Program-made: the position numbers and the translations under genes | Notes under the pieces: generated by a model | What the model was told of the DNA's origin: nothing | Databases searched by the model: none | The model's input: only the letters and a program-made list of their open reading frames with translations | Origin: an uncultured Gammaproteobacteria bacterium | GTDB taxonomy: Bacteria > Pseudomonadota > Gammaproteobacteria > Pseudomonadales > Litorivicinaceae | Assembly: GCA_913042205.1 (NCBI GenBank) | Contig: CAJWIY010000018.1 | Coordinates: forward strand, 1 to 36,927 | DNA: 36,927 nt | Direction: 5' to 3' | Shown: piece after piece, positions 9,550 to 36,927 of the stretch | How positions within the stretch are numbered: position 1 is the stretch's first letter | Layout of the letters: each line of letters opens with the position of its first letter

Positions 9550-9964
9550 ACTTCACTTTGCACTCAGGCTCTCTGACACGGGTGAGCTAGTTGATTCAAC
9601 CTTCGGGAAAAAACCTGCTTCTCTAGTCATTGGTGATGGAAACCTGCCTGAAGCGTTCGAGATGGTTATTCATGGGATGAGCGCAGGTGAACGGAAAGTC
9701 GAGATTATCAAGCCTAAGGACGGATTTGGGCAGCGCAATCCCTCCAATATACAGCGGATCCCGAGAGATCAATTTGATCCCACTATTGAACTCGCCGAGG
9801 GCTTGGTACTGAGTTTTCAGGACAAAGCTAAATCTGAATTACCGGGTGTCGTATCCTTAATTGAAGACAGAATGGTGACGGTTGATTTCAATCATCCATT
9901 GGCGGGGCGAGATCTTGAATTCGAGGTTGAAATTCTCTCTGTAGTTCCGGCGGAGACACATTGA
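9518..9964 (+). CDS. fkpB: FKBP-type peptidyl-prolyl isomerase, SlpA-like
   Basis: A 148-residue protein of the FkpB/SlpA group: an FKBP core interrupted by an insert-in-flap domain ([19 protein letters not shown]), then [19 protein letters not shown], the family signature. It isomerises Xaa-Pro bonds and may act as a chaperone in the cytoplasm. The ATG at 9518 lies within lspA; no later ATG/GTG/TTG precedes the conserved core, so the 32-base overlap seems real. The lspA-fkpB-ispH order is conserved in gammaproteobacteria. Confidence 0.95.
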
Positions 9965-10911
9965 TGCAAGCGACTCTTGCCAACCCTCGCGGCTTTTGTG
10001 CTGGTGTCGACCGCGCGATTGACATCGTTAATCGTGCGCTTGAGATCTTCGGGGCACCGGTTTACGTGAGGCACGAGGTGGTCCACAACAAAACAGTGGT
10101 CAACGACCTCAGGTCGCGGGGAGCGGTGTTCGTGGACGAGCTTGATGAGGTCCCAGACGACACCATTGTGATCTTTTCAGCCCATGGCGTATCGCGGGCG
10201 GTTCGAGACGAGGCGACGCGACGAAAACTGAAGGTGTTTGATGCCACCTGTCCATTGGTAACTAAAGTCCACTTGGAAGTGCTCAAGTTTTCAGAGGAAG
10301 GCCGTGAATGTATTTTGATAGGTCATGCCGGCCACCCTGAAGTCGAGGGAACCTTAGGGCAGTTTGATAGAACCCATGGCGGTGTCATGAAGCTTGTTCA
10401 AGATGAACAAGAAGCGCAGACAGTCGTGATTGACGATCCCAAGAGTGTATCCTTCGTGACACAAACGACATTGTCGATGGACGACACAGTGCGAATTATT
10501 GATATCCTTCGCGAGCGCTTTCCCGACATCCAAGGCCCGCGAAAGGATGATATTTGCTATGCCACACAGAACCGGCAAGATGCAGTCAAACGGCTCGCTT
10601 TGGAGCACGATCTCGTTTTGGTGGTCGGCTCTATAAACTCGTCCAACTCCAACCGACTCAAAGAACTTGCTGAGCGATTGGGCTCGAAGTCATATCTGAT
10701 TGACGGCCCCGAGCAGATTGACTCAGTGTGGGTTAAAGAGGCGAACGCAATCGCTGTAACTGCTGGCGCATCTGCCCCTGAGAATGTCGTTCAGGCTGTC
10801 TGCGATCGTTTGAGGGAATTAGGTGTCGATACGGTTGTCCAAGAAGATGGCGTCACAGAATCGATTCAGTTCTCCTTACCGAAAGAACTAAAGCTACGTG
10901 TCGTGGATTAG
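9964..10911 (+). CDS. ispH: 4-hydroxy-3-methylbut-2-enyl diphosphate reductase
   Basis: A 315-residue iron-sulfur enzyme catalysing the last step of the MEP pathway, giving IPP and DMAPP. The three cluster-binding cysteines are C12 ([12 protein letters not shown]), C96 (DATCPLV) and C198 ([11 protein letters not shown]), matching E. coli IspH (C12, C96, C197) almost exactly. The substrate residues in HEVVHN and the GHxGHPE loop ([11 protein letters not shown]) are present. I use ATG 9964, which shares its A with the fkpB stop (TGATG); a TTG at 9961 is less likely. It appears to close the murJ operon. Confidence 0.97.
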
Positions 10912-10973
10912 TACGGTAGTCTAAACAGAAAATCTGCCACTCATTCATCTGCATAGTTTGTACGGAATTGACT

Positions 10974-11002
10974 CTGACGGGCGGACGTCTGCGTGCGATA
11001 AT
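10974..11002 (+). promoter_or_regulatory. Candidate extended -10 promoter for thiO
   Basis: GATAAT (10997-11002) is preceded by TGC, forming an extended -10 (TGnGATAAT). CTGACG (10974-10979) lies 17 bases upstream and matches the -35 consensus at four of six positions. The expected start site falls at or next to the thiO ATG at 11009, which has no visible ribosome binding site, so the message could be leaderless. The remainder of the ispH-thiO gap (10912-11008) shows nothing else. Confidence 0.35.
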
Positions 11003-11008
11003 CAAACG

Positions 11009-12103
11009 ATGGTGAGATCTCAATCTTATTCGGCCGATGTATTAGTGATTGGTGCTGGAGTAATGGGCATGATGTCTGCTTTGGAGTTAGCTGAGGCAGG
11101 TCTTTCGGTTTTTGTGTTCGATAAAGGGCGGGCGGGGCAGGAGGCCTCTTGGGCTGGTGGTGGAATTATTTCGCCACTATACCCATGGCGGTACGCGCCT
11201 TCGATTACGGCACTCGCCACATGGTCGCAGCAGGCGTTTCCCGATCTGATTGCCTCACTGAACGAATCAACCGGGATTGATTCCGAGTTATCTACAGAAG
11301 GAATGTTGGTGACCGCAACTGATGAGCGTGAAAAGGCACTCGCTTGGGGTGTCGGTCTATCACCTAAAGTTATTGAAATCAGTGACGAAGAGGCGCGAGT
11401 GCTCGAGCCGAATGTAGTATTGGATGAAACGCCGCTTTGGATGCCACGTATCTCAAGCGTTAGGAACTCGAGAATGGGTCGGGCACTGAGACAGGCTTGT
11501 TTGAACCATCCAAAGATTCAATTACTTGAATATCGTGAGGTCATATTGTCGGGGGATCTTGATTCGCCCAAGGTCTCAAGTCAAAGCCAAGGCTACGTCA
11601 GTGGTCGAGTCGTTTTAGCAGCCGGGGCGTGGACCGGAAATATGTTTACGGGAGTTAAGCTCAGTTGCCCGATAAAGCCAATGAAGGGGCAGATGCTGTT
11701 GTTCGGTCCATGTGATTTGGTAAATAGAGTTGTCTTGGCGAATGGGCGCTATGCAATACCCAGGGCCGACGGGCGGATTATATTTGGATCAACATTGGAG
11801 GATGTTGGTTTTGAAAGGATACCTGACCGTGACGCATTTGAGTCGCTATACGCATCTGCGCTTTCGATGATTCCGATACTTGAGGAGATTCCATTAGAGG
11901 CACAATGGGCCGGGTTCCGACCTGGATCACCTGAGGGGTTACCTTGGATTGGAGCCGTCTCGGACAAGCTATGGGTGAACTCAGGTCATTTTCGAAATGG
12001 AGTTGTCTTGAGTCCCGCGTCCAGCCGACTATTATGCGACCAGATGATGGATCGAACACCGATTGTTGACCCCACGCCTTATCAACCTTGGAAAACCTTA
12101 TGA
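11009..12103 (+). CDS. thiO: FAD-dependent glycine/D-amino acid oxidase (ThiO-like)
   Basis: A 364-residue flavoprotein of the DAO family. The Rossmann motif VIGAGVMG (residues 13-20) binds FAD, followed by SWAGGGIISP and a C-terminal WAGFRPGSPEGLPWIG block typical of glycine oxidases. ThiO makes the glycine imine (dehydroglycine) used in thiazole synthesis for thiamine; broader D-amino acid oxidase activity is possible. The start is ATG 11009; an in-frame extension from TTG 10958 adds a polar tail without family support. The stop overlaps nadE (ATGA). In Pseudomonas thiO lies next to type IV pilus genes, which are absent here. Confidence 0.87.
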   Translation: MVRSQSYSADVLVIGAGVMGMMSALELAEAGLSVFVFDKGRAGQEASWAGGGIISPLYPWRYAPSITALATWSQQAFPDLIASLNESTGIDSELSTEGMLVTATDEREKALAWGVGLSPKVIEISDEEARVLEPNVVLDETPLWMPRISSVRNSRMGRALRQACLNHPKIQLLEYREVILSGDLDSPKVSSQSQGYVSGRVVLAAGAWTGNMFTGVKLSCPIKPMKGQMLLFGPCDLVNRVVLANGRYAIPRADGRIIFGSTLEDVGFERIPDRDAFESLYASALSMIPILEEIPLEAQWAGFRPGSPEGLPWIGAVSDKLWVNSGHFRNGVVLSPASSRLLCDQMMDRTPIVDPTPYQPWKTL

Positions 12104-13752
12104 CGCAACGCTCTATCCGATTATTTCAAATGGATGCCACAGTTGGAGATTTCAGCGTCAACTTACAGAAGCTTTCCCGAGCGGCAGCGCAAGCTCGGGC
12201 TGATGGTATCTCTATCTTGATCGCTCCTGAACTAGCTTTGACCGGATATCCGCCTGAGGACTTACTTTTACGTCCCGCGCTGATCCATAAGTTGGAGTTC
12301 GCCGAGACAAAATTGTGTGAAATCAGCGAAGGATTGACGCTCTGTGTTGGGCTGCCGACACTAGCACCAAAAAAGCTTCGAGAGTGCGATCGAGGTGACC
12401 TGAGTTTCAGACCTTCATCACTGCACAACAGTCTAGTTGTTTATCAGTATGGGCGGCGTTTGACCGCTTATCACAAAAATTCCCTACCAAACTATCAGGT
12501 ATTTGATGAACGTCGTTATTTCGTTGCTGGGACGGAACCAATGGTATGCGAGATCGAGGGGATACGAATTGGCTTGTTGGTCTGCGAGGATGTTTGGGTC
12601 CCAGAGATTGTTGAAGCCACCTGTGCGCTTGGTGTGGACTTGATTATGGTTGTGAACGCGTCGCCATTTGCGGAGAACAAAATCTCTGAGAGGTATTGGC
12701 ATCTGACGGATCGAGCTAGCAACAATCAGATACCAATTGCTTACGTGAATCTGGTCGGTGGACAGGACGAATTGGTCTTTGATGGGGGTTCATTTGCCGT
12801 CAATCGGCAGGGAAAAATCGTCGCACAAGCTAATTTTTTTGCTGAGGAAATGCTCGATATTATCTGGGATGGGAAGGACCTTGCTAAAAGCTGTACAGCC
12901 GCTTTACCGTCTAAGGATTGGTTGCTATACCAGGCGCTCGTGACGGGTGTCCGTGATTATTTTGCAAAAACAGGATTTAAGAAGGCTGTTCTCGGATTGT
13001 CAGGAGGCATTGATTCAGCACTGACACTCGTTTGTGCCGTGGATGCATTGGGTGCTGAAAATGTGCACGCGGTGATGATGCCCTATCTATACACAGCTGA
13101 AATCAGTGTCACTGATGCTAGACGACAGGCGGAGATTCTGGGCTGTGAGTTTTCTGTTGTTTCTATCGAACCAATGGTCCGTGAATGTATGGATGTGTTA
13201 GGGCCTTTCTTCAAGGGTCATCCTGTTGACGCGACAGAAGAGAACATACAGAGCCGGTGCCGGGGCGTACTTTTAATGGCGCTCTCCAATAAAACAGGCG
13301 CCCTGGTCCTTACTACAGGCAACAAGAGCGAGATGGCGGTAGGGTACGCCACCCTATACGGAGATATGGCCGGTGGATTCGCGGTATTAAAAGACGTCTG
13401 GAAAACAAGGGTTTATGATCTTGCTCGGTTTGTGAATCGAGACAGGGAGGCTATCCCCGAACGTGTCATCAGCCGACCACCTTCGGCTGAACTTGCGCCG
13501 GAACAGGAGGATTCTGACAGTCTGCCCCCGTATGATCGGCTTGATCAGATGCTGTCACTATATATTGAATCCGACCAATCGCCTCAGGCCATCATCGATT
13601 CCGGTTTTGATTCGGAAGAGGTGAAGCGAATATGTCGGCTGGTCGATATCAACGAGTACAAGAGGCGACAGTCGGCTGTTGGTCCCCGAGTGACCGCGCG
13701 AGGCTTCGGCCGCGATCGGAGGTATCCGATAGCGAATCGCTGGTCATTCTAA
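12100..13752 (+). CDS. nadE: Glutamine-dependent NAD+ synthetase
   Basis: A 550-residue two-domain enzyme for the last step of NAD synthesis. The N-terminal nitrilase-type glutaminase domain has the catalytic triad E44 (APELALTGY), K126 (YHKNSLPNY) and C162 (LLVCEDVW). The C-terminal synthetase domain has the ATP pyrophosphatase loop SGGIDS (301-306) and the GNKSEMAVGY signature. The presence of the glutaminase domain means it can use Gln rather than only ammonia. The ATG overlaps the thiO stop. Its stop codon overlaps the bamD stop on the other strand by 4 bases. Confidence 0.96.
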   Translation: MTQRSIRLFQMDATVGDFSVNLQKLSRAAAQARADGISILIAPELALTGYPPEDLLLRPALIHKLEFAETKLCEISEGLTLCVGLPTLAPKKLRECDRGDLSFRPSSLHNSLVVYQYGRRLTAYHKNSLPNYQVFDERRYFVAGTEPMVCEIEGIRIGLLVCEDVWVPEIVEATCALGVDLIMVVNASPFAENKISERYWHLTDRASNNQIPIAYVNLVGGQDELVFDGGSFAVNRQGKIVAQANFFAEEMLDIIWDGKDLAKSCTAALPSKDWLLYQALVTGVRDYFAKTGFKKAVLGLSGGIDSALTLVCAVDALGAENVHAVMMPYLYTAEISVTDARRQAEILGCEFSVVSIEPMVRECMDVLGPFFKGHPVDATEENIQSRCRGVLLMALSNKTGALVLTTGNKSEMAVGYATLYGDMAGGFAVLKDVWKTRVYDLARFVNRDREAIPERVISRPPSAELAPEQEDSDSLPPYDRLDQMLSLYIESDQSPQAIIDSGFDSEEVKRICRLVDINEYKRRQSAVGPRVTARGFGRDRRYPIANRWSF

Positions 13753-28504: not shown

Positions 28505-28546
28505 TATTAAAGGACGTAATGTACCAAGTTGGGCCCCTGTTGTGCT

Positions 28547-29077
28547 ATGAAGAATCATCGCTTTTCCGATGCTCTTTGGATCCCGAGTCCACATTTCGAC
28601 GAGAGACCGGGCGACGCCATCGATTTAATTGTGATACATGCGATCTCTTTGCCACCTAACTTATTTAACCCCCTGCCCATCATGGCCTTCTTTCAAGGGT
28701 TATTAAGTTACGGCGCTGATGGTTACTTTGAGAAATTGAGGGATGTCCGAGTCTCGTCTCATCTGGTAATCGGGCGTGGCGGTGCTGTCTATCAATCCGT
28801 CGCCTTCGATAAGCGTGCCTGGCATGCTGGTGAGTCGGAATTTCAGGGACGGGCTCGATGTAATGATTTTAGTATCGGCATTGAATTAATCGGTGACGAA
28901 GAGGGGCCATTTACAGCTGAGCAATATCGCTCACTTTCTAGCATATGCGATCGACTGTGCGTGACCTATGAGATCCCCAGTGAGCACATCGTTGGCCACC
29001 GTGATATCTCTCCTGGGCGTAAAGTCGATCCAGGAGCTGATTTTGACTACTTAAGAATTCGCCCGTCCCCTAAATAG
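28547..29077 (+). CDS. ampD: 1,6-anhydro-N-acetylmuramyl-L-alanine amidase
   Basis: A 176-residue cytoplasmic zinc amidase of the amidase_2 family. Zinc ligands are H31 (LIVIHAISLPP), H151 (VGHRDISPGRK) and D161 (KVDPG); K159 lies in the conserved position. It cleaves anhydroMurNAc-peptides in peptidoglycan recycling and in other gammaproteobacteria controls ampC induction through AmpR. No signal peptide. I use ATG 28547 (MKNHRF); an in-frame extension to 28529 has no support. Its end overlaps the convergent permease gene by 8 bases. Confidence 0.94.
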   Translation: MKNHRFSDALWIPSPHFDERPGDAIDLIVIHAISLPPNLFNPLPIMAFFQGLLSYGADGYFEKLRDVRVSSHLVIGRGGAVYQSVAFDKRAWHAGESEFQGRARCNDFSIGIELIGDEEGPFTAEQYRSLSSICDRLCVTYEIPSEHIVGHRDISPGRKVDPGADFDYLRIRPSPK

Positions 29078-29963
29078 GGGGCGCTAGGGCGAGTGCGAGG
29101 GGGATCCATATGATCGCCGCTATGTTTCCAATTAAAACGATCGAAGCGACCCGGGTCGGTTCCTGTTTGTATTGCTCAGCGAGCATGAAGCAAAGTACTG
29201 CGGGTGGTAGTGCCGCGAACAACAGAAAGACACTCCATTGAACGGGATTCAAATCCAGAAGCGGCTTCAGTAGAAAAGCGATAATCAGACTAACCATCGG
29301 ACACCATATCGCTCCGAGAACTGCTATCCGTAGATCGCGAGTGGAGACACTGTTCATACGGATACCAAGCGCAAACAGCACAAGCGTGACCCCCGTATTT
29401 GCTAAAAAATCTAAGGGCACCAGTATTGTCTCGTTTACCTCGACCGGCGTTAACGCAACCGTTATCCCGGCCATGGTCGCAAGGACGGTTGGGGCTGAGA
29501 TTGGGTTAATGATTTTGGCCTCCCGGTCTAAGATATAAAAGCCAAGTGAGAAGTGTAGAAACTGCGAGACGATGAAAACGACGACGATAGCGGGCATCGC
29601 TTGCTGGCCAAATGCCAAAAGGACCAGCGGAAACGCTAGGTTTCCAGTGTTGGTAAACATCATCGGTGGGACAAATGTTTTGGATTCAATTTTGAGTAAT
29701 AGGCATAGAAGCCAGGTGATTAATCCGCAGCCCAAGATAATGCAGGACACTCCAAATGCCAGGGTGACATACTTTTCGAGTTGAACATTTTTGCCCGCTA
29801 GCACCGAGAAAATAAGAATAGGGACAAGTAATTCCATGCATAGCTTATTGATCACGGACATATCTGGTTTACGCCACCTGCCGTAGATGTAGCCGATAAG
29901 CACGACTATCAGCACCGGGATGACGCTCCGCAGAATTCGATCAATAATTAGCTCGGTAGTCAC
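29070..29963 (-). CDS. AEC (auxin efflux carrier) family permease
   Basis: A 297-residue membrane protein with about ten hydrophobic segments in two repeated halves. The N-terminal IPVLIVVLIGYIYGRW, the central MMFTNTGNLAFPLVLLAFG and the C-terminal ALPPAVLCFMLAEQY are the AEC/Mem_trans pattern. Bacterial members often carry malate, malonate or related organic acids, so a carboxylate substrate fits its position after the hydroxyacid dehydrogenase gene. It starts at GTG 29963 with AAGGAAT upstream. It lies 63 bases downstream of the dehydrogenase on the same strand. Substrate not determinable here. Confidence 0.87.
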   Translation of the reverse strand: MTTELIIDRILRSVIPVLIVVLIGYIYGRWRKPDMSVINKLCMELLVPILIFSVLAGKNVQLEKYVTLAFGVSCIILGCGLITWLLCLLLKIESKTFVPPMMFTNTGNLAFPLVLLAFGQQAMPAIVVVFIVSQFLHFSLGFYILDREAKIINPISAPTVLATMAGITVALTPVEVNETILVPLDFLANTGVTLVLFALGIRMNSVSTRDLRIAVLGAIWCPMVSLIIAFLLKPLLDLNPVQWSVFLLFAALPPAVLCFMLAEQYKQEPTRVASIVLIGNIAAIIWIPLALALAPPI

Positions 29964-30026
29964 GTGACTGGCGATTCCTTTTTGGTAAGCATTGTTTCGG
30001 GTAAGGTATAGCGATTTATTGTTGGA

Positions 30027-31184
30027 CTATTTTCGGTGAAAGCCGTCTGGAACGATCAGAATATCTTGGTCTATATCTCTGATTAGGGTCCGCCCACAGA
30101 GCCCCATTGTTGTGTCCAACTCTTTATGGATGATTTTTAGAGCGTCGGTCACACCCTGTTCACCGTTGGCTCCGAGACCATAGGTATAGGCCCGGCCTAT
30201 CATTGTACCTTTCGCTCCCAGAGCGATTGCCTTCAACACATCCTGGCCTGAACGAATCCCACTATCGAACAATACTTCAGTTTTATGGCCTACCGTATCG
30301 ACGATATGGGAGAGCATCCGAATCGAGCTTGATGCACCATCCAATTGACGTCCACCATGATTAGATACCACGATAGCGTCCGCACCAAGCTCTGCGGCTT
30401 TGACTGCGTCTGCCGCATCGAGAATACCTTTTAGGATAACCTTGCCGCCCCACATTTCTATTAATTGCCCGATGCGTTTCCAATCCAGCGATTGGTCAAA
30501 CGCCTCTGCCGTCCAGCTGCTCAGAGAAGATGCGTCACTTACGCCTTTGGCGTGACCGACGATGTTGCCAAAAAATCTGCGCTTAGTTCCAAGCATTTCG
30601 AGCCCCCAGCCGACTCTGGTGATCATGTCTGCGACTGATTTCAGTGTCAGCTTAGGAGGAGCGGAGAGACCGTTCTTAAGATCTTTGTGTCGTTGGCCTA
30701 GCATCTGGAGGTCCACTGTAATGACTAGAGCGGAGCAATTCGCCGCCTTCGCACGTTCCATCAGACGACGCATAAAGTCGTCGTCTTTTAGGGTGTACAC
30801 CTGAAACCAGAAAGGTTTATGGGTGTGCTCTGCTACGTCTTCGATCGAGCAGATTGACATGGTGGATAATGTAAAGGGAACACCGAAACTCTCTGCGGCT
30901 CGGGCGGCTTTGATTTCACCGTCCGCGCATTGCATCCCGGTCAGGCCAACTGGAGCTAGCGCTACGGGCATTGAGACAGGGTGCCCGATCATCGTAGTCT
31001 CGGTTGATCGACCCTCCATGTTGACAGCTATTTTTTGTCTGAAGTATAGCTCTTGAAAATCTGCTGAATTTTCAAGAAACGTCTGCTCGGTCCAGCTGCC
31101 GGTCTCCGCGTAGTCGTAAAACATCTTGGGAACCCGGCGTTTATAGATCTGCTTCAGATCGTCGATGGTTGTTATAACCGTCAT
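30027..31184 (-). CDS. FMN-dependent alpha-hydroxyacid dehydrogenase (LldD-like)
   Basis: A 385-residue (S)-2-hydroxyacid oxidase/dehydrogenase of the lactate dehydrogenase/glycolate oxidase family. The TIM barrel shows APVGLTGMQ (FMN site), FQVY with Y130, TVD with D158, the catalytic base H276 and R279 in SNHGGRQLDGA, and the C-terminal FDSGIRSG phosphate-binding loop. It oxidises an L-2-hydroxyacid to the 2-oxoacid, passing electrons to quinone or oxygen. Lactate is one option, not shown by sequence. GAGGATC precedes ATG 31184. It sits 115 bases after the small membrane protein gene, on the same strand as the TRAP genes. Confidence 0.9.
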   Translation of the reverse strand: MTVITTIDDLKQIYKRRVPKMFYDYAETGSWTEQTFLENSADFQELYFRQKIAVNMEGRSTETTMIGHPVSMPVALAPVGLTGMQCADGEIKAARAAESFGVPFTLSTMSICSIEDVAEHTHKPFWFQVYTLKDDDFMRRLMERAKAANCSALVITVDLQMLGQRHKDLKNGLSAPPKLTLKSVADMITRVGWGLEMLGTKRRFFGNIVGHAKGVSDASSLSSWTAEAFDQSLDWKRIGQLIEMWGGKVILKGILDAADAVKAAELGADAIVVSNHGGRQLDGASSSIRMLSHIVDTVGHKTEVLFDSGIRSGQDVLKAIALGAKGTMIGRAYTYGLGANGEQGVTDALKIIHKELDTTMGLCGRTLIRDIDQDILIVPDGFHRK

Positions 31185-31299
31185 GTTGGGGATCCTCGTT
31201 CTTTATGAGGCAGATAGGTTAGGTTTTTGTGCGACCTGATAATCTCAATATAACGCGAATAACAAGATCGAAAAAATCCGACTATTTGGTTGACTATCG

Positions 31300-31500
31300 C
31301 TAATCTTTTTGTCGAATTATCTCGTCCCAGAGGTCATAGAAGGCCATGCCCACTACCGCTGTTGCGATAATTGCGAACGGGAGCCCCCCCCAGAATCCAG
31401 CGAAACCCGTGGAGATACTATGGGATAGACCAAAAATGAAGATCGCAAACAAAATTGTTGCGATTAGCGCAAGAATTACTTTTACCTGTTGTGAAAGCAT
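31300..31500 (-). CDS. Small membrane protein coupled to the amidase gene
   Basis: A 66-residue protein I do not recognise, with two hydrophobic helices at about residues 7-27 and 36-55 and a charged end (DLWDEIIRQKD). The ATG shares its A with the amidase stop (TAATG), and AAGGAGAAG gives an excellent ribosome binding site, so it is very likely translated. Possible roles are an extra subunit of the DctQM transporter or an unrelated membrane factor; neither is shown. Confidence 0.72.
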   Translation of the reverse strand: MLSQQVKVILALIATILFAIFIFGLSHSISTGFAGFWGGLPFAIIATAVVGMAFYDLWDEIIRQKD

Positions 31501-32834
31501 TAAGCTTCTCCTTCATCAAAAAGCGTGGTCATGAACCAGCGTGCTGTTCTTAGTAGACGGGCATCGTCTCTGAGGCGACCGACCATCTGTAACCCAATCG
31601 GGAGCCCATTTTCACCTTGCATAATGGGGAGATTCAAGGTTGGTAGACCGGCGAGGGTCCAGACAGTGCAGAAGATTGGGTTACCCGTGTGTCCCTCGCT
31701 AAGAAGCGGTGCCTCGCCTGATGCCGATGGGGATAGTATCGCGTCAAAGTCTTCGAAGAAACTTTGGAAAAACGATCCGGCTGACGCTTTAATTTCAAGT
31801 GCCTCATCGTATTCGTTTTGTGCAAAGTTTCTACCCTCTTCGAGCATCTTAGACAGAATTATAGAAAGGTCTGAACTCCCCACGAATCCAAGCCTGTCAA
31901 AGGCGCGGTGTGCCTCGGTCATGTGAATGATGCGCTGTGCCCTGATGAGTTCCTCGAACATTGGCGGGGCTTCCAGAACCTCCACTTGCCCCTCGAGAGC
32001 GTCTGCTAGTTCACGAAACCCTTCCGTGCATGCTCGTGACTGCAGTTTGCTGTATGGCAAAGTCAGGATCGCAAAGTTCGGATCCATCGGGGGCTCTGAG
32101 CAGGCACCTTGGAAGCAAGACGGTCTTGGCGCGGCGATGCTATGCGGGTCGCGGCTATCGTGAATCGACAGAGCATCGGTCACCAAGCCTAGGTCCTCAA
32201 GAGATGTCGCAAATAATCCCATCTGGTCCAATGTTGGCGACTGCTCGAAAACGCCTATTCTTGGGATAATTCCGGCAGAGGGCTTCATGGCGTACACCCC
32301 ACAGTAGGATGCCGGACGAATGACCGAGCCATTTGTCTGTGATCCGATCGCGACCGGCACATCTCCAGATGCCACCGCCGCGGCGGAGCCGGCCGATGAT
32401 CCGCCTGGCGAGTACTCCTGCGAATGTGGATTCTTCGTGCGTGCGGGATTTAAAAATGCAAATTCAGTGGTCTCTGTTTTTCCTAGGATTATCGCTCCCG
32501 CGGCTTCTAGTGCGTCGACCAAAACCGCGTTTTGATCCGAGACCTGACCCATCAAAGGTGACCCGCAGCCATGAGGCATCGCTTTTACTTCGATGATATC
32601 TTTTACGCCTATCGGGCATCCGTGAAGAGAACCAAGGGCACTCCCGTCCTTGCGAATCCGATCCATTTGGTCTGCTCGTTCTAGGGCGCGAGTTTCATCG
32701 ACAAATGACCACGATCCCAATGCCTCGTTATCACGAATGCGTCCGAGGCAGTGCTCTACCCACTGTCTGGAGCCCAAGAGCCCGTCCGCAACAGCGCTAA
32801 CGGTTTCAGAGATCGTCTGACTACTCTCGGGCAT
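31500..32834 (-). CDS. Amidase signature family hydrolase
   Basis: A 444-residue amidase-signature enzyme. The catalytic Ser-cisSer-Lys triad is K78 (PIGVKDII), the cis-serine in GGSSAGS (about S147) and nucleophile S170 (QTNGSVIRPA). There is no signal peptide, so it acts in the cytoplasm on an amide that has been taken up. The family covers aliphatic and aryl amides, ureido compounds and tRNA-linked glutamate, and the length and QTNGSVIRPA variant do not suggest GatA. The ATG shares a base with the dctM stop (TAATG), tying it to the transporter. Confidence 0.88.
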   Translation of the reverse strand: MPESSQTISETVSAVADGLLGSRQWVEHCLGRIRDNEALGSWSFVDETRALERADQMDRIRKDGSALGSLHGCPIGVKDIIEVKAMPHGCGSPLMGQVSDQNAVLVDALEAAGAIILGKTETTEFAFLNPARTKNPHSQEYSPGGSSAGSAAAVASGDVPVAIGSQTNGSVIRPASYCGVYAMKPSAGIIPRIGVFEQSPTLDQMGLFATSLEDLGLVTDALSIHDSRDPHSIAAPRPSCFQGACSEPPMDPNFAILTLPYSKLQSRACTEGFRELADALEGQVEVLEAPPMFEELIRAQRIIHMTEAHRAFDRLGFVGSSDLSIILSKMLEEGRNFAQNEYDEALEIKASAGSFFQSFFEDFDAILSPSASGEAPLLSEGHTGNPIFCTVWTLAGLPTLNLPIMQGENGLPIGLQMVGRLRDDARLLRTARWFMTTLFDEGEA

Positions 32835-34195
32835 TACGGAACATATTCTCCGAACAGGTAATCAGGTAGCCATAGCGCGAGTTCAGGGAATTGGTATAGA
32901 AGCACCATGCTAAATATAACGATCCCAAGGTAAGGCATCAGCCCCTTAAAAATTTCCATGAGCTCGATTTGATTCTTCAACACGCCTTTCAGGTAATATG
33001 CGGACATGGCCATCGGTGGGGTCAAGAACGAGGTCTGCAGATTCAGAGCCACGAGCATTGCAAAGAAGTAGGGGTTGACACCGAAGTTATCGAGCATTGG
33101 CAAGAAGATTGGCACAAAAATGATCAGGATCTCGGACCATTCTAGAGGCCAACCCAGTATGAAAATAATCGCCTGCACCATCACCAGAAACTGCCACGGA
33201 GCCAGTTCCATCCCAAGCACCCAGTGCTCAATCACATCGTGGCCACCGAGATAAGAGAATATTGAGGCAAAGGTCCACGACCCTACAAATAGCCAGCACA
33301 CCATCGCCGTTGCTTTAGCGCAAAGAAATACACTCTCCTGAATCTTCTGCCACGTGAGCGCGCGGTACAAAGCCGCCAAGACCAACGAACCGAGGGCGCC
33401 CATCGCTGCAGCCTCTGCCGGCGTCGCGAGGCCCCCAAGTATCGAGCCGAGGACCATGACGATCAGGACCGTAAGGGGAACAAATGAGAAGAGTAGGTCT
33501 TTGTAGATCTCAAAAACCGGAGGAATGGTGTCTTTGGCGGGTTTCGGCGCTATGGTCGGATTTATTGTGACCCTAACAATTGAATAGACGATATACAAAC
33601 CCGCGAGCATCAATCCCGGAAACATCGCAGCGGCGTAAAGGCGGAGCGGTGAGAGCTCTGCGATCGCCGCGTACACAATGAGCATGATCGATGGTGGGAT
33701 CAGTATCCCAAGCGTTCCACCAGCGCAGATTACACCTGCAGCGAACTTCTTGTCATAGTTGGCGTTGGCCATCGCTGGATACGCCAATAACCCCATCAGG
33801 GTAACAACCGCGCCGACGATCCCGGATGCGGTAGAGAAAACCGCGCACGTTATGAGTGCGGCGATCGCCATGGATCCGGGTAGGTTGTGCGCCGCCATCT
33901 GCAGTGAACGGAATAGGCGCCCAACGATGTCGGCCCGCTCGACGACGTACCCCATGAACAGAAAAAGAGGGATCGCGACCAATGTGTCGTTCTCCATCAC
34001 CGAGTAGGTGTTTTGGTTCAGAAGATAGAAAATTTGGTTATTAAAAAGGTCAGCTAAACTATCTGGTGCCTGGTAGTAAGCGTAGTAACCGAATCCGACA
34101 CCCATCGCGATGAGCGTGAAGGCGATTGGGAAGCCCAGGAGGACCAGGACAATAAACAGGCACAGCATCAAAATTGCGACTTCAGGGTTTGTCAT
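32834..34195 (-). CDS. dctM: TRAP transporter large permease DctM
   Basis: A 453-residue membrane protein with about 12 hydrophobic segments, the size and pattern of the TRAP large subunit (ion transporter superfamily). Typical are the opening helix PEVAILMLCLFIVLVLLGFP, the AALITCAVFSTASGIVGA segment and GGTLGILIPPSIMLIVYA with its GxxIPPS loop, and LQTSFLTPPMAMSAYY near the C-terminus. It drives sodium-coupled uptake of a carboxylate delivered by DctP. Its ATG overlaps the dctQ stop by 4 bases (ATGA) and its stop overlaps the amidase start. Confidence 0.95.
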   Translation of the reverse strand: MTNPEVAILMLCLFIVLVLLGFPIAFTLIAMGVGFGYYAYYQAPDSLADLFNNQIFYLLNQNTYSVMENDTLVAIPLFLFMGYVVERADIVGRLFRSLQMAAHNLPGSMAIAALITCAVFSTASGIVGAVVTLMGLLAYPAMANANYDKKFAAGVICAGGTLGILIPPSIMLIVYAAIAELSPLRLYAAAMFPGLMLAGLYIVYSIVRVTINPTIAPKPAKDTIPPVFEIYKDLLFSFVPLTVLIVMVLGSILGGLATPAEAAAMGALGSLVLAALYRALTWQKIQESVFLCAKATAMVCWLFVGSWTFASIFSYLGGHDVIEHWVLGMELAPWQFLVMVQAIIFILGWPLEWSEILIIFVPIFLPMLDNFGVNPYFFAMLVALNLQTSFLTPPMAMSAYYLKGVLKNQIELMEIFKGLMPYLGIVIFSMVLLYQFPELALWLPDYLFGEYVP

Positions 34196-34770
34196 GCTCT
34201 CTTCTCCTGGTGCTCAGCTTCTTCCATAAGGAGCTGCTCGGTTTCTTTAACGTCGCTTAGCCTTTGCATCCACCTGTCCTCGCGAATTGCACGGATGCAC
34301 CTGCAAATCTCGGCAGCTCCCTGCAACATCAGCAGGAACCCGGCGATGGGTATTAAAGTTTTAAAGAAGTAGATCTGTATCCGGGCCGGACTGTTCCAAC
34401 TCACCTCTTTATAACGCCAGCTGTCGGCCGCGATCTCTGCGCCGTACCAAAACAGAGCGAGCATGCCCGGAAAGAAGAACAAGACGTACAGTATCAGGTC
34501 TATTTTTCCTTGGGTTTTAGGGGAAAGTAATCGATACAGGAAGTCTCCCCGGACGTGTGCGTCTTGGGCAAGTGCGTATGGACCCGCCATCAAGAAGAGG
34601 GCACCATACATCTGTATCATCATATCCATGGACCATACGGTTGGCGCATTTAAAACATAACGCACGAACACTTCATACGATACGGACAGGGTCAATATTA
34701 AAATACACCAGCCGAAGGCCCGCCCAACCCACACGTTGAGACCCTCGATAGCGTAGACGAAACGATCCAC
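34192..34770 (-). CDS. dctQ: TRAP transporter small permease DctQ
   Basis: A 192-residue membrane protein with four hydrophobic segments and the DctQ pattern (GRAFGWCILILTLSVSYEVF, then YALAQDAHVRGDFLYRLL). It forms the membrane complex with DctM. The start is GTG 34770 with GGAG 10 bases upstream. The charged C-terminal tail (EQLLMEEAEHQEKRA) is cytoplasmic. A strong terminator separates it from dctP upstream. Confidence 0.93.
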   Translation of the reverse strand: MDRFVYAIEGLNVWVGRAFGWCILILTLSVSYEVFVRYVLNAPTVWSMDMMIQMYGALFLMAGPYALAQDAHVRGDFLYRLLSPKTQGKIDLILYVLFFFPGMLALFWYGAEIAADSWRYKEVSWNSPARIQIYFFKTLIPIAGFLLMLQGAAEICRCIRAIREDRWMQRLSDVKETEQLLMEEAEHQEKRA

Positions 34771-34891
34771 TACCTAGCTACTCCAAAAAGATTGGCATCC
34801 TGCTCGAACATCAAATGTGCGCATCTTGCGCCATTACTTGAGGCTGAAACTTTGTTAGGACGAAGTTTAATACTTCCCTCACGCTTTAGCC

Positions 34892-34925
34892 AAAAAAATA
34901 CCCGAGCACGGAGGCTCGGGTATTT
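34892..34925 (-). terminator. Strong intrinsic terminator between dctP and dctQ
   Basis: A perfect 12-base-pair stem (34896-34907 with 34914-34925, ACGGAG loop on the plus strand) is flanked by seven As at 34892-34898, which read as a T-run on the minus strand. It lies 18 bases after the dctP stop codon. It should stop most dctP transcripts before dctQ. Confidence 0.9.
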
Positions 34926-34943
34926 CTGTTCCACTAATAGGTA

Positions 34944-36047
34944 TCAACCGAAGTGGTGCTTGTAGGCCATCCGGTAGTCCGGCTGGTTCAGGTTCAGATA
35001 ATTCATCACCCGCTTAGCGTAGGCCTTCTGCGAGTCAATTACCTTCGCGAAGAAAGGATCCTCTGCGCTGATCCGGTCTACAACGATGTCCCAAGCCTTG
35101 AGCTGCTCCTGCATCACAGAATCAGGGGTACGGTATACGTTGACGCCTTGATTCTGCAGGTTCACCAAATCATCAGCGTACCGGTTGGTGTTGTGCCAGT
35201 AGAAGTTCGAGTTCTCTGCCTCTGATGCATACTTCAGGATCGCCTGAAGCTCTGCTGGTAGACCATCGTACTTCTTCTTGTTGAAAGAGATCTCGAAGAA
35301 TTCCTGCGACTGGTGGAACGAACCCAGATGATAGTGCTTAGATACGTCTTGCATACCGAAGTCACGGTCAGAGGTTGGGTTATTGAATTCTGCGGCGTCG
35401 ATCAGACCAGACTTCATCGCCGGCTGGATTTCACCACCGGGTAGTTGGACTACGGACATCCCCATCTCCATGAGGACGTCAGCAGCCAGGCCGACCGTAC
35501 GATACTTCAGGCCGCTCATCTGCGATGCGTCATTTATTTGTTCTTTGAACCAGCCCATTGGCTGCGCTGGCATTGGGCTGTTGAAGAACGACACGATGTT
35601 CAGACCCAACGACCCCATGAGCTCGTTGAAGAGTTCCATACCGCCGCCGTAGTGACACCAGCCCAAGACCTCTTGTGAGGACCAGCCGAAACATGGGCCA
35701 GTGCCGAACAATGAAGCTGCCTTCGACTTTGAGTACCAATAAGCAGGCACGTAGTGACAACCGTCGAGCACGCCGCGGTGCACCGCGTCCTGCATCTGAG
35801 AGGTTTTTACAACTGAATTAACTGGGAGCAGATCAATCTTGAGGTCCTTGCCTGCCATCGCGTGAACACGGTCGACATATGCCTGCGCGTTCTCGAGGAA
35901 AATACCGCCACCCCAGGCTGCCTGCACTTTAAGAGTTGTACCACCGTGACCACCGGCGTTGACAAGTGCTGGGAAACCGAGACTGGAGGCCGCTGCTGTT
36001 GCCGTAGCTCCCTTGAGGAATGAACGGCGATCGAGTTTTTTGCTCAT
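34944..36047 (-). CDS. dctP: TRAP transporter substrate-binding protein DctP, Tat-exported
   Basis: A 367-residue periplasmic binding protein. The N-terminus carries a twin-arginine signal (DRRSFLKG, R7-R8) and a hydrophobic stretch, with likely cleavage near residue 31 (LVNA). The mature part has the TRAP fold: GLKYRTVGLAADVL with the signature arginine, PGGEIQPAMKSGLIDAAEF, and SQEFFEISFNKKKYDGL. It resembles Rhodobacter TakP, a 2-oxoacid binder that is also Tat-type, so a 2-oxo or 2-hydroxyacid ligand is plausible but not proven. TAAGGTAG precedes ATG 36047. Confidence 0.94.
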   Translation of the reverse strand: MSKKLDRRSFLKGATATAAASSLGFPALVNAGGHGGTTLKVQAAWGGGIFLENAQAYVDRVHAMAGKDLKIDLLPVNSVVKTSQMQDAVHRGVLDGCHYVPAYWYSKSKAASLFGTGPCFGWSSQEVLGWCHYGGGMELFNELMGSLGLNIVSFFNSPMPAQPMGWFKEQINDASQMSGLKYRTVGLAADVLMEMGMSVVQLPGGEIQPAMKSGLIDAAEFNNPTSDRDFGMQDVSKHYHLGSFHQSQEFFEISFNKKKYDGLPAELQAILKYASEAENSNFYWHNTNRYADDLVNLQNQGVNVYRTPDSVMQEQLKAWDIVVDRISAEDPFFAKVIDSQKAYAKRVMNYLNLNQPDYRMAYKHHFG

Positions 36048-36090
36048 CGGACTACCTTATTTTTATCTATTACCTGCGCGCTTTTCCTGT

Positions 36091-36105
36091 CCTGCCGCAG
36101 GCAGG
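36091..36105. repeat. Short inverted repeat in the dctP leader
   Basis: CCTGCC (36091-36096) and GGCAGG (36100-36105) pair perfectly around a 3-base loop, about 45 bases upstream of the dctP ATG. No T-run follows on either strand. It may be an mRNA hairpin or an operator half. Confidence 0.4.
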
Positions 36106-36136
36106 GCGCTCCTTATTTCCATCCGTGGGGCAGTAA

Positions 36137-36165
36137 ATAGTGCGGATTTCTGTCGAATCTTGCAA
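36137..36165 (-). promoter_or_regulatory. Possible promoter of dctP
   Basis: On the minus strand TTGCAA (36160-36165) and CACTAT (36137-36142) are separated by 17 bases. The -10 match is weak (three of six). Transcription would start near 36130 with a leader of about 80 bases containing the 36091-36105 hairpin. Confidence 0.3.
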
Positions 36166-36224
36166 GGCTTTTGCGAAAAAACCGACCAGGCTATTTTTTC
36201 ATTGAAAGTTGTTTCCAATAAAGT

Positions 36225-36244
36225 CACTGTGAGCGCTTACTATT
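36225..36244. promoter_or_regulatory. LacI-family-like operator palindrome
   Basis: The core GTGAGCGCTTAC (36229-36240) is palindromic apart from one position pair, with a CG centre. The 20-base site matches the symmetric ideal lac operator at 16 of 20 positions. It is 14 bases before the hydroxyacid dehydrogenase ATG, a typical place for a repressor of the LacI/GalR family. No LacI-family gene is in the window. Confidence 0.45.
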
Positions 36245-36258
36245 CGCGGAGAGATTGC

Positions 36259-36927
36259 ATGCCAGAATTGAGTATCACACGTCGTTTGGTAGATCCGGTT
36301 CTGATCCGAGCCAGGAAGAATTATTCAGTGTGGCTCAATGAAGACGACCACGTTATGTCATCAGACGAGATCATTGAGAGAAGCCATGAGGCTGACGCGA
36401 TGATGATTTGTCACTCTGAGATTTTGTCGGCCGATGTCGCGGCGCGCCTGTCTGATCGGTTGAAGATCGTCGCTAACTATTCGGTTGGTGTAGATCACTG
36501 TGACCTTCTTGCGTTAAAGGAGCGGGGGATTGTCGTCACTAACACGCCGGATGTCTTATCTGACGCCACGGCTGAGATCGCGATGCTTTTACTACTGGGC
36601 GCGAGTCGTCGTGCCTACGAGGGTGACCAGATGCTTCGCTTAGGCACCTGGAAGCATTGGGCCCCAGTCGGCATGAACGGTATTCAAGTCAGCGCGAAAA
36701 AGCTCGGAATTGTAGGCATGGGTCGCGTCGGTCAGACGGTTGCGAGGCGCGCACGCGGGTTCGATATGGAAATACACTACACAAACCGCAGACGGCTACC
36801 GCCCGAACTGGAACAGAACGCGGTCTATCATTCAACGATCAAATCGCTGTTTGAGACAGTAGATATGATTTCACTTAATTGCCCCGCAACGCCCGAGACT
36901 GATAATTTGGTTAATACAGAGTCAATA
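36259..36927 (+). CDS. D-2-hydroxyacid dehydrogenase (glyoxylate/hydroxypyruvate reductase type), cut by right edge
   Basis: The first 223 codons of an NAD(P)-dependent D-2-hydroxyacid dehydrogenase run to the window end without a stop. The sequence shows ANYSVGVDHCDL, NTPDVLSDATAEIAMLLLL and the Rossmann loop GMGRVG (153-158). After the second beta strand comes YTNRRRLPPE: arginines rather than an aspartate, which favours NADPH and a glyoxylate or hydroxypyruvate reductase role. The catalytic Arg/Glu/His residues fall partly beyond the edge. GGAGAG (36248-36253) precedes ATG 36259. Divergent from dctP over 211 bases; probably linked in function with the hydroxyacid dehydrogenase at 30027. 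Confidence 0.9.
   Translation, partial: MPELSITRRLVDPVLIRARKNYSVWLNEDDHVMSSDEIIERSHEADAMMICHSEILSADVAARLSDRLKIVANYSVGVDHCDLLALKERGIVVTNTPDVLSDATAEIAMLLLLGASRRAYEGDQMLRLGTWKHWAPVGMNGIQVSAKKLGIVGMGRVGQTVARRARGFDMEIHYTNRRRLPPELEQNAVYHSTIKSLFETVDMISLNCPATPETDNLVNTESI

Follow-up and report, generated by a model that had tools for sequence, protein, structure and literature searches.

Tripartite ATP-independent periplasmic (TRAP) importers are described as three-part systems, and the one that comes closest to the locus examined here is TakPQM of Rhodobacter sphaeroides, an alpha-keto acid transporter. The locus lies in a 36,927-nucleotide stretch (the window), the entire contig C18 of the 2.02 Mb, 93-contig genome G000 of an uncultured marine gammaproteobacterium, and comprises the TRAP genes dctP, dctQ and dctM, an amidase gene and a gene for a 66-residue membrane protein, a unit that we term the cassette. 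Its solute-binding protein, DctP, has by prediction the fold of TakP, and the same residues as TakP Y100, R177, Q156 and E214, but differs in a Gln at the E240 position, in further pocket residues and in overall sequence (25-26% identity in structural alignment); to the TakPQM arrangement the cassette adds the amidase and the small membrane protein. The lactate-binding TTHA0766 (2zzv) and the pyroglutamate-binding DctP7 (2pfy) share the TRAP fold, at Z scores of 36.2 and 30.3 as against 40.7 for TakP. The amidase has malonamidase E2, a hydrolase of malonamate, as its nearest described counterpart, with the catalytic Lys, Ser and Ser and the GSVIRPA-YCG stretch in common; it differs in its linkage to a TRAP and, in 45 of 64 cassette amidases, by an Asn that replaces Gly two positions ahead of the nucleophile Ser. 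The explanation we favour, with moderate confidence, is that the cassette imports a small 2-hydroxy- or 2-oxo-monocarboxylate as a cation-dependent TRAP system of the TakP class, with the two-helix protein serving the permease and the amidase as an adjunct. To us the small protein is the most interesting part of the locus, in that it hints at an unrecognised extra transporter part.

A further comparison is with the glycolate genes of SAR11 strain HTCC1062. In the available text of PMC6775983, SAR11_0274 of this strain is named a glycolate transporter together with glcDEF, and HTCC7211 is without these genes; in that of PMC2217521, SAR11_0273 and SAR11_0274 are assigned to carbohydrate transport. 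Neither text, as far as it is available, gives a transport assay for the role named, and the words amidase and TRAP do not occur in that of PMC6775983. The HTCC1062 genes are most likely the same cassette as we find in a family of small-genome bacteria, f122, with its glcDEF, flavin mononucleotide (FMN) dehydrogenase, D-2-hydroxyacid dehydrogenase (Ddh), dctPQM, amidase and small protein genes. Two suppositions enter here, both of which we infer: that SAR11_0274 is part of this TRAP, and that f122 is SAR11, since its genomes are of 0.8-1.6 Mb with low guanine-plus-cytosine content at third positions and fit the published description of HTCC1062. The window's genus differs from HTCC1062 in being without glcDEF at the site, where LldD-type, AEC and pdhR-like/aceE neighbours are found instead. 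The available text of PMC8269220 and PMC7992965 holds nothing on this locus, and that of PMC6018831 and PMC10308909 nothing on this TRAP beside glycolate genes.

Recurrence of the cassette and likeness of its binding protein to TakP

Relatives were sought with DctP in 398 genomes of the phylum (32 matched at E 1e-75, the window's own included), in 337 genomes of the class around genome G440 (38 at E 1e-90) and in 60 genomes of G440's own family, f122 (50, including 25 of the 26 high-quality ones). Neighbourhoods were taken from 31 of the 32 phylum matches, the 32nd being the window's genome, from 20 of the 50 family matches together with G440, and from 20 of the 38 class matches. The set of 84 loci used below excludes duplicates on the same contigs (L047, L049, L050, L052 and L054), L039-L044 and L046, and the amidase relatives without this DctP (L058-L062). 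It holds 65 cassette amidases, of which the window's genus supplies 12 and the SAR11-like family 21; L104, where the contig ends, is excluded from counts on 64. The DctP tree has 80 rows, proteins of 300 aa or less being excluded.

What these neighbourhoods give directly is gene order, conservation and recurrence, to which the analysis of DctP adds fold class and the residues of the binding site. Conserved together are dctPQM, an amidase of malonamidase-E2 type and the two-helix membrane protein, often with a dehydrogenase of glyoxylate-reductase type near by. This unit recurs across Pseudomonadota in many of the sampled families, including all 21 SAR11-like loci examined, and one cassette stands in a Rokubacteria metagenome-assembled genome (MAG; L057). 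As expected of a TRAP system, dctQ and dctM accompany dctP in 80 of 81 DctP loci (L211 has dctP only), and the distance from the end of dctM to the amidase start is -14 to 63 nt in all but one of the 64 loci measured, the exception being L097, where Ddh lies in between. An initial annotation, made from the letters of the window, had assembled these genes with an FMN hydroxyacid dehydrogenase and an AEC permease into one organic-acid locus. The search of distant lineages bears this out for the amidase, the small protein and Ddh, which recur with this TRAP; the FMN dehydrogenase and AEC genes proved to be neighbours in the genus, outside the conserved cassette.

Ordinary operon drift, by which a TRAP importer carries hitch-hiking genes that form no functional unit, would accommodate the absence of any neighbour family beyond the cassette and Ddh from more than five of 53 loci compared, as well as the instability of Ddh, which switches side and changes nine times on the DctP tree (small protein three times, amidase five). 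It fits less well with the recurrence of the cassette in many sampled families, with the reappearance of Ddh and other 2-hydroxyacid genes in different positions, and with the presence at one site in the window's genus of two cassette versions from different branches, and we regard it as quite improbable. The commonest extra neighbours in the 53 loci were a metallo-beta-lactamase-like gene (identified by eye), in five, and several others, including a GarR-like gene (named for L097), in three. In L109, at 9908-12997, the cassette has as neighbours genes for a regulator and a P450-like protein, both identified by eye, and for another TRAP binding protein, which clusters with DctP.

The favoured explanation, import of a small acid, begins with DctP. 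Its gene (34944-36047, minus strand; Pfam DctP 4.2e-25, TAT_signal 1.8e-05) encodes a solute-binding protein predicted to be exported by the twin-arginine translocation (Tat) route; among PDB sequences it matches TakP best (2hzk, 8.5e-41). An AlphaFold model (mean predicted local distance difference test score, pLDDT, 88.8), with long C-terminal helices at 265-299 and 331-354 that bear on the helix-swapped dimer of the TakP class, aligned in order with 4yzz (Z 41.2), 4yic, TakP 2hzl (40.7), 7ug8 (40.1), 4pet, 5cm6 and 2zzv (36.2); two lactate sensors scored 35.4 and 34.8, and the next TRAP binders listed 31.6 or less. The known ligands among the high scorers are a sodium-ketoacid pair (TakP), ketovalerate with calcium (7ug8) and calcium-lactate (2zzv), those of 4yzz, 4yic, 4pet and 5cm6 being absent from the structure listing. 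The ligand residues of TakP were taken from the available text of PMC1839085, in whose numbering 14 of 15 residues agree with the PDB chain (the paper's A213 is Thr in the chain). The carboxylate and cation positions Y100, R177, Q156 and E214 correspond to Y103, R183, Q162 and E220 of the window's protein and are the same in all 80 DctPs, whereas the second acidic cation ligand, E240, is Gln in all 80. On this sequence and model evidence, DctP would belong to the TakP class of 2-oxo- and 2-hydroxyacid binders, in the sense of working alike rather than of strict orthology; the likeness to TakP remarked on in the initial annotation is confirmed by sequence, predicted fold and site residues alike.

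Around the ligand the pocket departs from that of TakP in a consistent way: P243 is replaced by Glu (E249), T153 by Met, V245 by Phe and F40 by Trp in 80 of 80 proteins, I47 by Phe in 69 of 80, and Y99 by Ala, Val or, once, Gly. The pocket appears smaller and more polar than TakP's.

The amidase and the hydroxyacid enzymes

The amidase-signature hydrolase (31500-32834, minus strand; Pfam Amidase 3.7e-75) finds its best PDB matches in malonamidase E2 entries, the top one at 3.7e-61. The residues of a Ser-cisSer-Lys triad, K78, S146 and S170, are present in 62, 63 and 63 of 64 aligned cassette amidases, and R173, which aligns with R158 of malonamidase E2, a residue that we take to act in carboxylate binding, in 63 of 64. 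The TRAP does without the amidase in 19 of 84 loci. In these the site residues of DctP are unchanged, which makes it probable that the ligand does not depend on the presence of the amidase. We searched with one cassette amidase in 20 genomes: three cassette carriers, G747 and G821 (of one genus), and 15 with amidase-less loci. Among the 15, G335 and G170 gave no match at E 1e-40, and the remaining 13 had a best match elsewhere of 37-48% identity, some of them partial. Cassette amidases of other lineages are themselves roughly 38-47% identical to the window's, and since the two ranges are much alike an unlinked counterpart of the amidase is possible in the 13 genomes. A link of the amidase to purine or ureidoglycolate breakdown was considered and dropped: the available text of PMC11698098 has ureidoglycolate lyase and no occurrence of amidase.

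The initial annotation had the TRAP import an amide or acyl-amide of a 2-hydroxy- or 2-oxoacid, to be hydrolysed in the cytoplasm. We hold import of such an amide (e.g. oxamate or ureidoglycolate), cut by the cytoplasmic amidase so that the dehydrogenases process the acid, to be a tentative alternative. The tight spacing of the amidase behind dctM in 63 of 64 loci suits it, as does the near-invariant R158-equivalent arginine, expected for a carboxylate substrate; the invariant Glu of DctP at the TakP Pro243 position could hold an NH2 group, and the amidases of the 13 genomes could stand in where the locus has none. The 19 loci that retain the DctP site residues without the amidase, with G335 and G170 lacking a match anywhere in the genome at the threshold used, are harder to square with it. 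At four places in the pocket, moreover, the TakP residue has given way to a larger one (W for F, mostly F for I, M for T and F for V), which suggests a small ligand; at one other, Y99, the replacement is smaller. The acid theme of that annotation accordingly stands, while amide import becomes possible rather than required.

Import of the free acid, the reading we prefer, draws also on the enzymes encoded near by. The FMN-dependent L-2-hydroxyacid dehydrogenase gene (30027-31184, minus strand) is LldD-like: its product reaches 408.7 bits with the L-lactate dehydrogenase subfamily PRK11197 (cut-off 376) and 357.1 bits, below the cut-off of 550, with the LldD exception model NF033901. On the other side, Ddh (36259-36927, plus strand; Pfam 2-Hacid_dh_C 8.1e-27) is a 223-aa fragment, since the window is a whole contig and ends inside the gene. 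Its best NCBIfam model is glyoxylate reductase, below cut-off, and the full-length Ddh of L033 likewise scores 265.1 bits with glyoxylate reductase PRK13243, below the cut-off of 455. The GxGxxG motif is found in 38 of 38 Ddh proteins (L096 excluded), with the following Asn in 37 and Arg in 37. We take Asn-Arg after GxGxxG as a sign of NADPH preference, and hence of action in the direction of reduction.

In the 21 SAR11-like loci we find the FMN dehydrogenase in 20, an aminotransferase in 20, GlcD with GlcF in 17 and Ddh in 20. Three of these loci (L181, L183 and L186) have two copies of the FMN dehydrogenase and a weak GlcD relative, and no GlcF was found in them. L097 has relatives of GlcDEF, Ddh, an AEC carrier of the same Pfam family as the window's and a tartronate-semialdehyde reductase above the model cut-off. 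Most of these enzymes act on C2-C3 hydroxy- and oxoacids, and the 2-hydroxyacid theme of the initial annotation is supported by the adjacency of the same TRAP elsewhere to genes of the glycolate-oxidase type, for FMN 2-hydroxyacid dehydrogenase and for tartronate-semialdehyde reductase.

In the scheme we propose, DctP, DctQ and DctM with the two-helix protein would import an acid in the range of glycolate, glyoxylate, lactate or pyruvate; the amidase, encoded right behind the permease and not always present, would hydrolyse a carboxylate-bearing amide in the cytoplasm. In the window's genus the LldD-type dehydrogenase, with the AEC carrier on the same side, would convert L-hydroxyacid to oxoacid, and the glyoxylate-reductase-type Ddh on the other side, behind which relatives have a PdhR/LldR-like regulator gene and aceE, would convert oxoacid to D-hydroxyacid. 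The ligand, the direction of each enzyme and every function given to the small protein and the amidase are deduced from the comparisons above and below. Were the ligand glycolate or lactate, the cassette would give ocean bacteria an entry route for carbon that phytoplankton release, and what the amidase does there would become a concrete question.

The small two-helix membrane protein

The 66-residue protein (31300-31500, minus strand) is modelled with helices at 4-31 and 40-63 (mean pLDDT 88.7), and its gene is under purifying selection, at a mean proportion of nonsynonymous differences (pN) of 0.126 as against a mean synonymous proportion (pS) of 0.69 in 28 pairs of eight genus genes. We scanned for open reading frames (ORFs) of this kind—same strand, 45-100 aa, two hydrophobic stretches and a start no more than 70 nt downstream—and found one after 59 of 64 cassette amidases, compared with 5 of 479 other long ORFs, 4 of 82 dctM, 1 of 80 dctQ and none of 81 dctP, 38 Ddh and 31 FMN genes. 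Adding L192, read directly, and G282, with a second contig, brings the total to 61 of 65; the amidases without a small protein behind them are those of L057, L097, L200 and L204. Lengths run from 53 to 95 aa, mostly 54-70, in the 59 ORFs. A fusion of amidase and small protein in L192 was entertained and rejected, a stop codon separating the two genes.

In Pfam and NCBIfam scans of 38 small proteins, no Pfam family appeared in more than three (25 of 35 families shown) and no NCBIfam family in more than two (23 shown); the best E value was 5.1e-4, the window's protein was under every cut-off, and the PDB yielded nothing better than E 0.42. A profile of the small protein, searched in 299 genomes, matched 13 at E 0.001 or less and 11 at 1e-7 or less, every one of the 11 carrying this DctP, and only G128, G282 and G335 among them having contributed no row to the profile. 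Weaker matches (2.2e-4 to 4.5e-4; G146, G228 and a second place in G174) lie in stretches with no match to a cassette query. The available text of the TRAP reviews PMC5812351 and PMC8276074 says nothing of an amidase or of a fourth, small protein in TRAP systems, and a full-text literature search gave no title on either among the matches listed; neither result is proof of absence.

Whether the protein serves the amidase or the permease can be weighed from its companions. As a membrane tether of the amidase, and no part of the transporter, it would be expected behind the amidase, where its gene nearly always stands, often overlapping by 1-11 nt, and the pairwise distances of the two proteins do correlate (r 0.781). 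Its distances are tracked more closely by DctP (0.866) and DctQ (0.865), with DctM at 0.85; the TRAP subunits correlate among themselves at 0.868-0.898 (DctP-DctQ 0.898), the amidase with the subunits at 0.70-0.74 and Ddh at 0.58-0.62. The small protein follows the TRAP, by this measure, somewhat more faithfully than it follows the amidase. In L112, L113, L114 and L201, which represent two separate amidase losses on the tree, the small gene adjoins dctM directly, and the four amidases listed above do without a small protein. We consider the tether unlikely, and the persistence of the small gene beside dctM in amidase-less loci leads us to propose that its product is an accessory of the TRAP permease.

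A supported clade of the DctP tree, with 63 rows, is distinguished by the small protein. In twelve loci (L057, L092-L101 and L212) DctM instead carries, after the position of residue 227 in the window's DctM, an insert of 133-210 aa with two hydrophobic stretches, and the small gene is found in none of the twelve. This mutual exclusion amounts to one contrast, and is weak evidence, because the insert arose once on the tree; L102, L103, L207 and L210 have neither insert nor small protein. In the twelve inserts the hydrophobic stretches are joined by a Pro/Ala/Glu-rich linker, some with repeats such as QEPP. Homology between insert and small protein was sought and none was detectable (hhalign probability 5.4%). 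The dctM of L198 has a different insert at another position (140 aa, three hydrophobic stretches), and the small protein is also present in that locus. A speculative and rather improbable extension makes the two-helix protein a genuine fourth subunit in one large TRAP clade, lying against DctM and holding the amidase at the permease exit to cut incoming acid amides, with a two-helix segment of DctM taking its place in the neighbouring clade. An additional membrane protein, conserved but outside any known family, would, if real, change the three-part picture of TRAP importers, and it occurs in almost all the members examined of a large clade, one to which the family read as the abundant SAR11 belongs.

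Several observations weigh against a small-acid importer with a permease-serving two-helix protein. The 65 cases are far from independent, since the small protein changes three times on the DctP tree and the amidase five times, and the distance correlations, none of whose values was reached in 500 permutations, were made with no species-tree control. The small protein is absent from 17 rows outside the core clade (L211, where no dctM was found, among them), five of which are also without the DctM insert, and from L200 and L204 inside it. The invariant pocket Glu is not needed for plain glycolate or lactate. Finally, a palindrome, TGGTC[AT]GACCA, that resembles the PdhR/LldR operator and is frequent at this locus in relatives (below), does not occur within one mismatch in the window's own gaps, and in the whole of G000 the one-mismatch pattern is barely above a reversed control (89 against 74).

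Layout of the locus in the window and in its genus

All the genes named in the initial annotation are present in the ORF list and by Pfam or NCBIfam family, and the overlaps it described are real: 4 nt between dctQ (34192-34770, minus strand; small permease subunit, Pfam DctQ 1.1e-23) and dctM (32834-34195, minus strand; large permease subunit, Pfam DctM 1.7e-77), and 1 nt each between dctM and the amidase gene and between the latter and the 66-residue gene. The FMN gene does follow the 66-residue gene as it stated, yet with 115 nt between them, and the range it gave, 30027-36927, takes in the other genes but not that of the AEC-type membrane carrier (29070-29963, minus strand; Pfam Mem_trans 3.2e-17). 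The 173-nt gap between dctP and dctQ (34771-34943, minus strand) has a terminator-like hairpin near its start (minimum free energy of the whole gap -57.2, z -3.58), and hairpins are predicted within 75 nt after dctP in all 13 loci folded, without shuffle control; the hairpin may allow output of DctP in excess of DctQM. An Rfam scan of 28900-36927 gave no match at gathering scores, and a scan for consensus promoters found fewer sites than in shuffles.

The window's genome is of Litoricola/OM252 type, and its relatives include the isolate HIMB30, of OM252 or 'Ca. Halomarinus' in the available text of PMC8269220. Of the 21 further genomes in the genus, 14 have DctP (E 1e-40), as against none of three from another genus of the family. 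All eight genes stand in the same order in the five relatives with spanning contigs (L033, L034, L035, L037 and L038), an order that is more than chance. In L033 (G001) the gene that follows Ddh encodes a GntR/FCD regulator most like PdhR and LldR, and aceE and an E2 gene come next; the best NCBIfam model for the relatives' regulator is the PdhR equivalog (221.8 bits, below the cut-off of 330), with LldR second (195.8). L036 and L045 (G020 and G006) have another version of the cassette, with a DctP 51-53% identical and on a separate branch of the tree: dctPQM, amidase, small protein and Ddh genes are inverted at the same site, between the FMN-AEC pair and the regulator-aceE genes. The two versions at one site suggest replacement of the cassette with its function kept. 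In the window's own genome, locus L046 (G000:C25:1-12000) has at 303-1319 a second Ddh gene, its product 78% identical to the window's, followed by regulator, aceE and E2 genes; it is probably the same locus from another strain, and the MAG may be a composite.

The palindrome was found 38 times exactly and 24 times with one mismatch in 19 genus loci (269,962 bases), where a first-order Markov model of the 238,061 bases in the 17 loci free of N predicts 8.8 with up to one mismatch; since the loci are related, the copies cannot be counted as independent. The gap between Ddh and the regulator gene is seen in 13 loci, and a pair stands in every one (exact in 11). Of 11 gaps between the small and FMN genes, 6 hold a pair, with a mismatch at one site of one of these pairs, and of 11 between dctP and Ddh, 5 hold a one-mismatch copy. 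L036 and L045 have a pair in the stretch that separates the FMN gene from dctP, one of the L036 sites being mismatched. The operator link holds for the relatives, and reaches the window only by homology. G000 has four exact copies, at C4:32817, C19:13885, C25:1334 and C25:24446, one of which precedes the regulator gene.

Beyond the AEC gene, whose end it overlaps by 8 nt, lies a gene with an N-acetylmuramoyl-L-alanine amidase domain (28529-29077, plus strand); its order with an adjoining ketoacyl-synthase-like gene is kept in relatives. G000 carries eight DctP-family genes above the Pfam cut-off in its 2 Mb.

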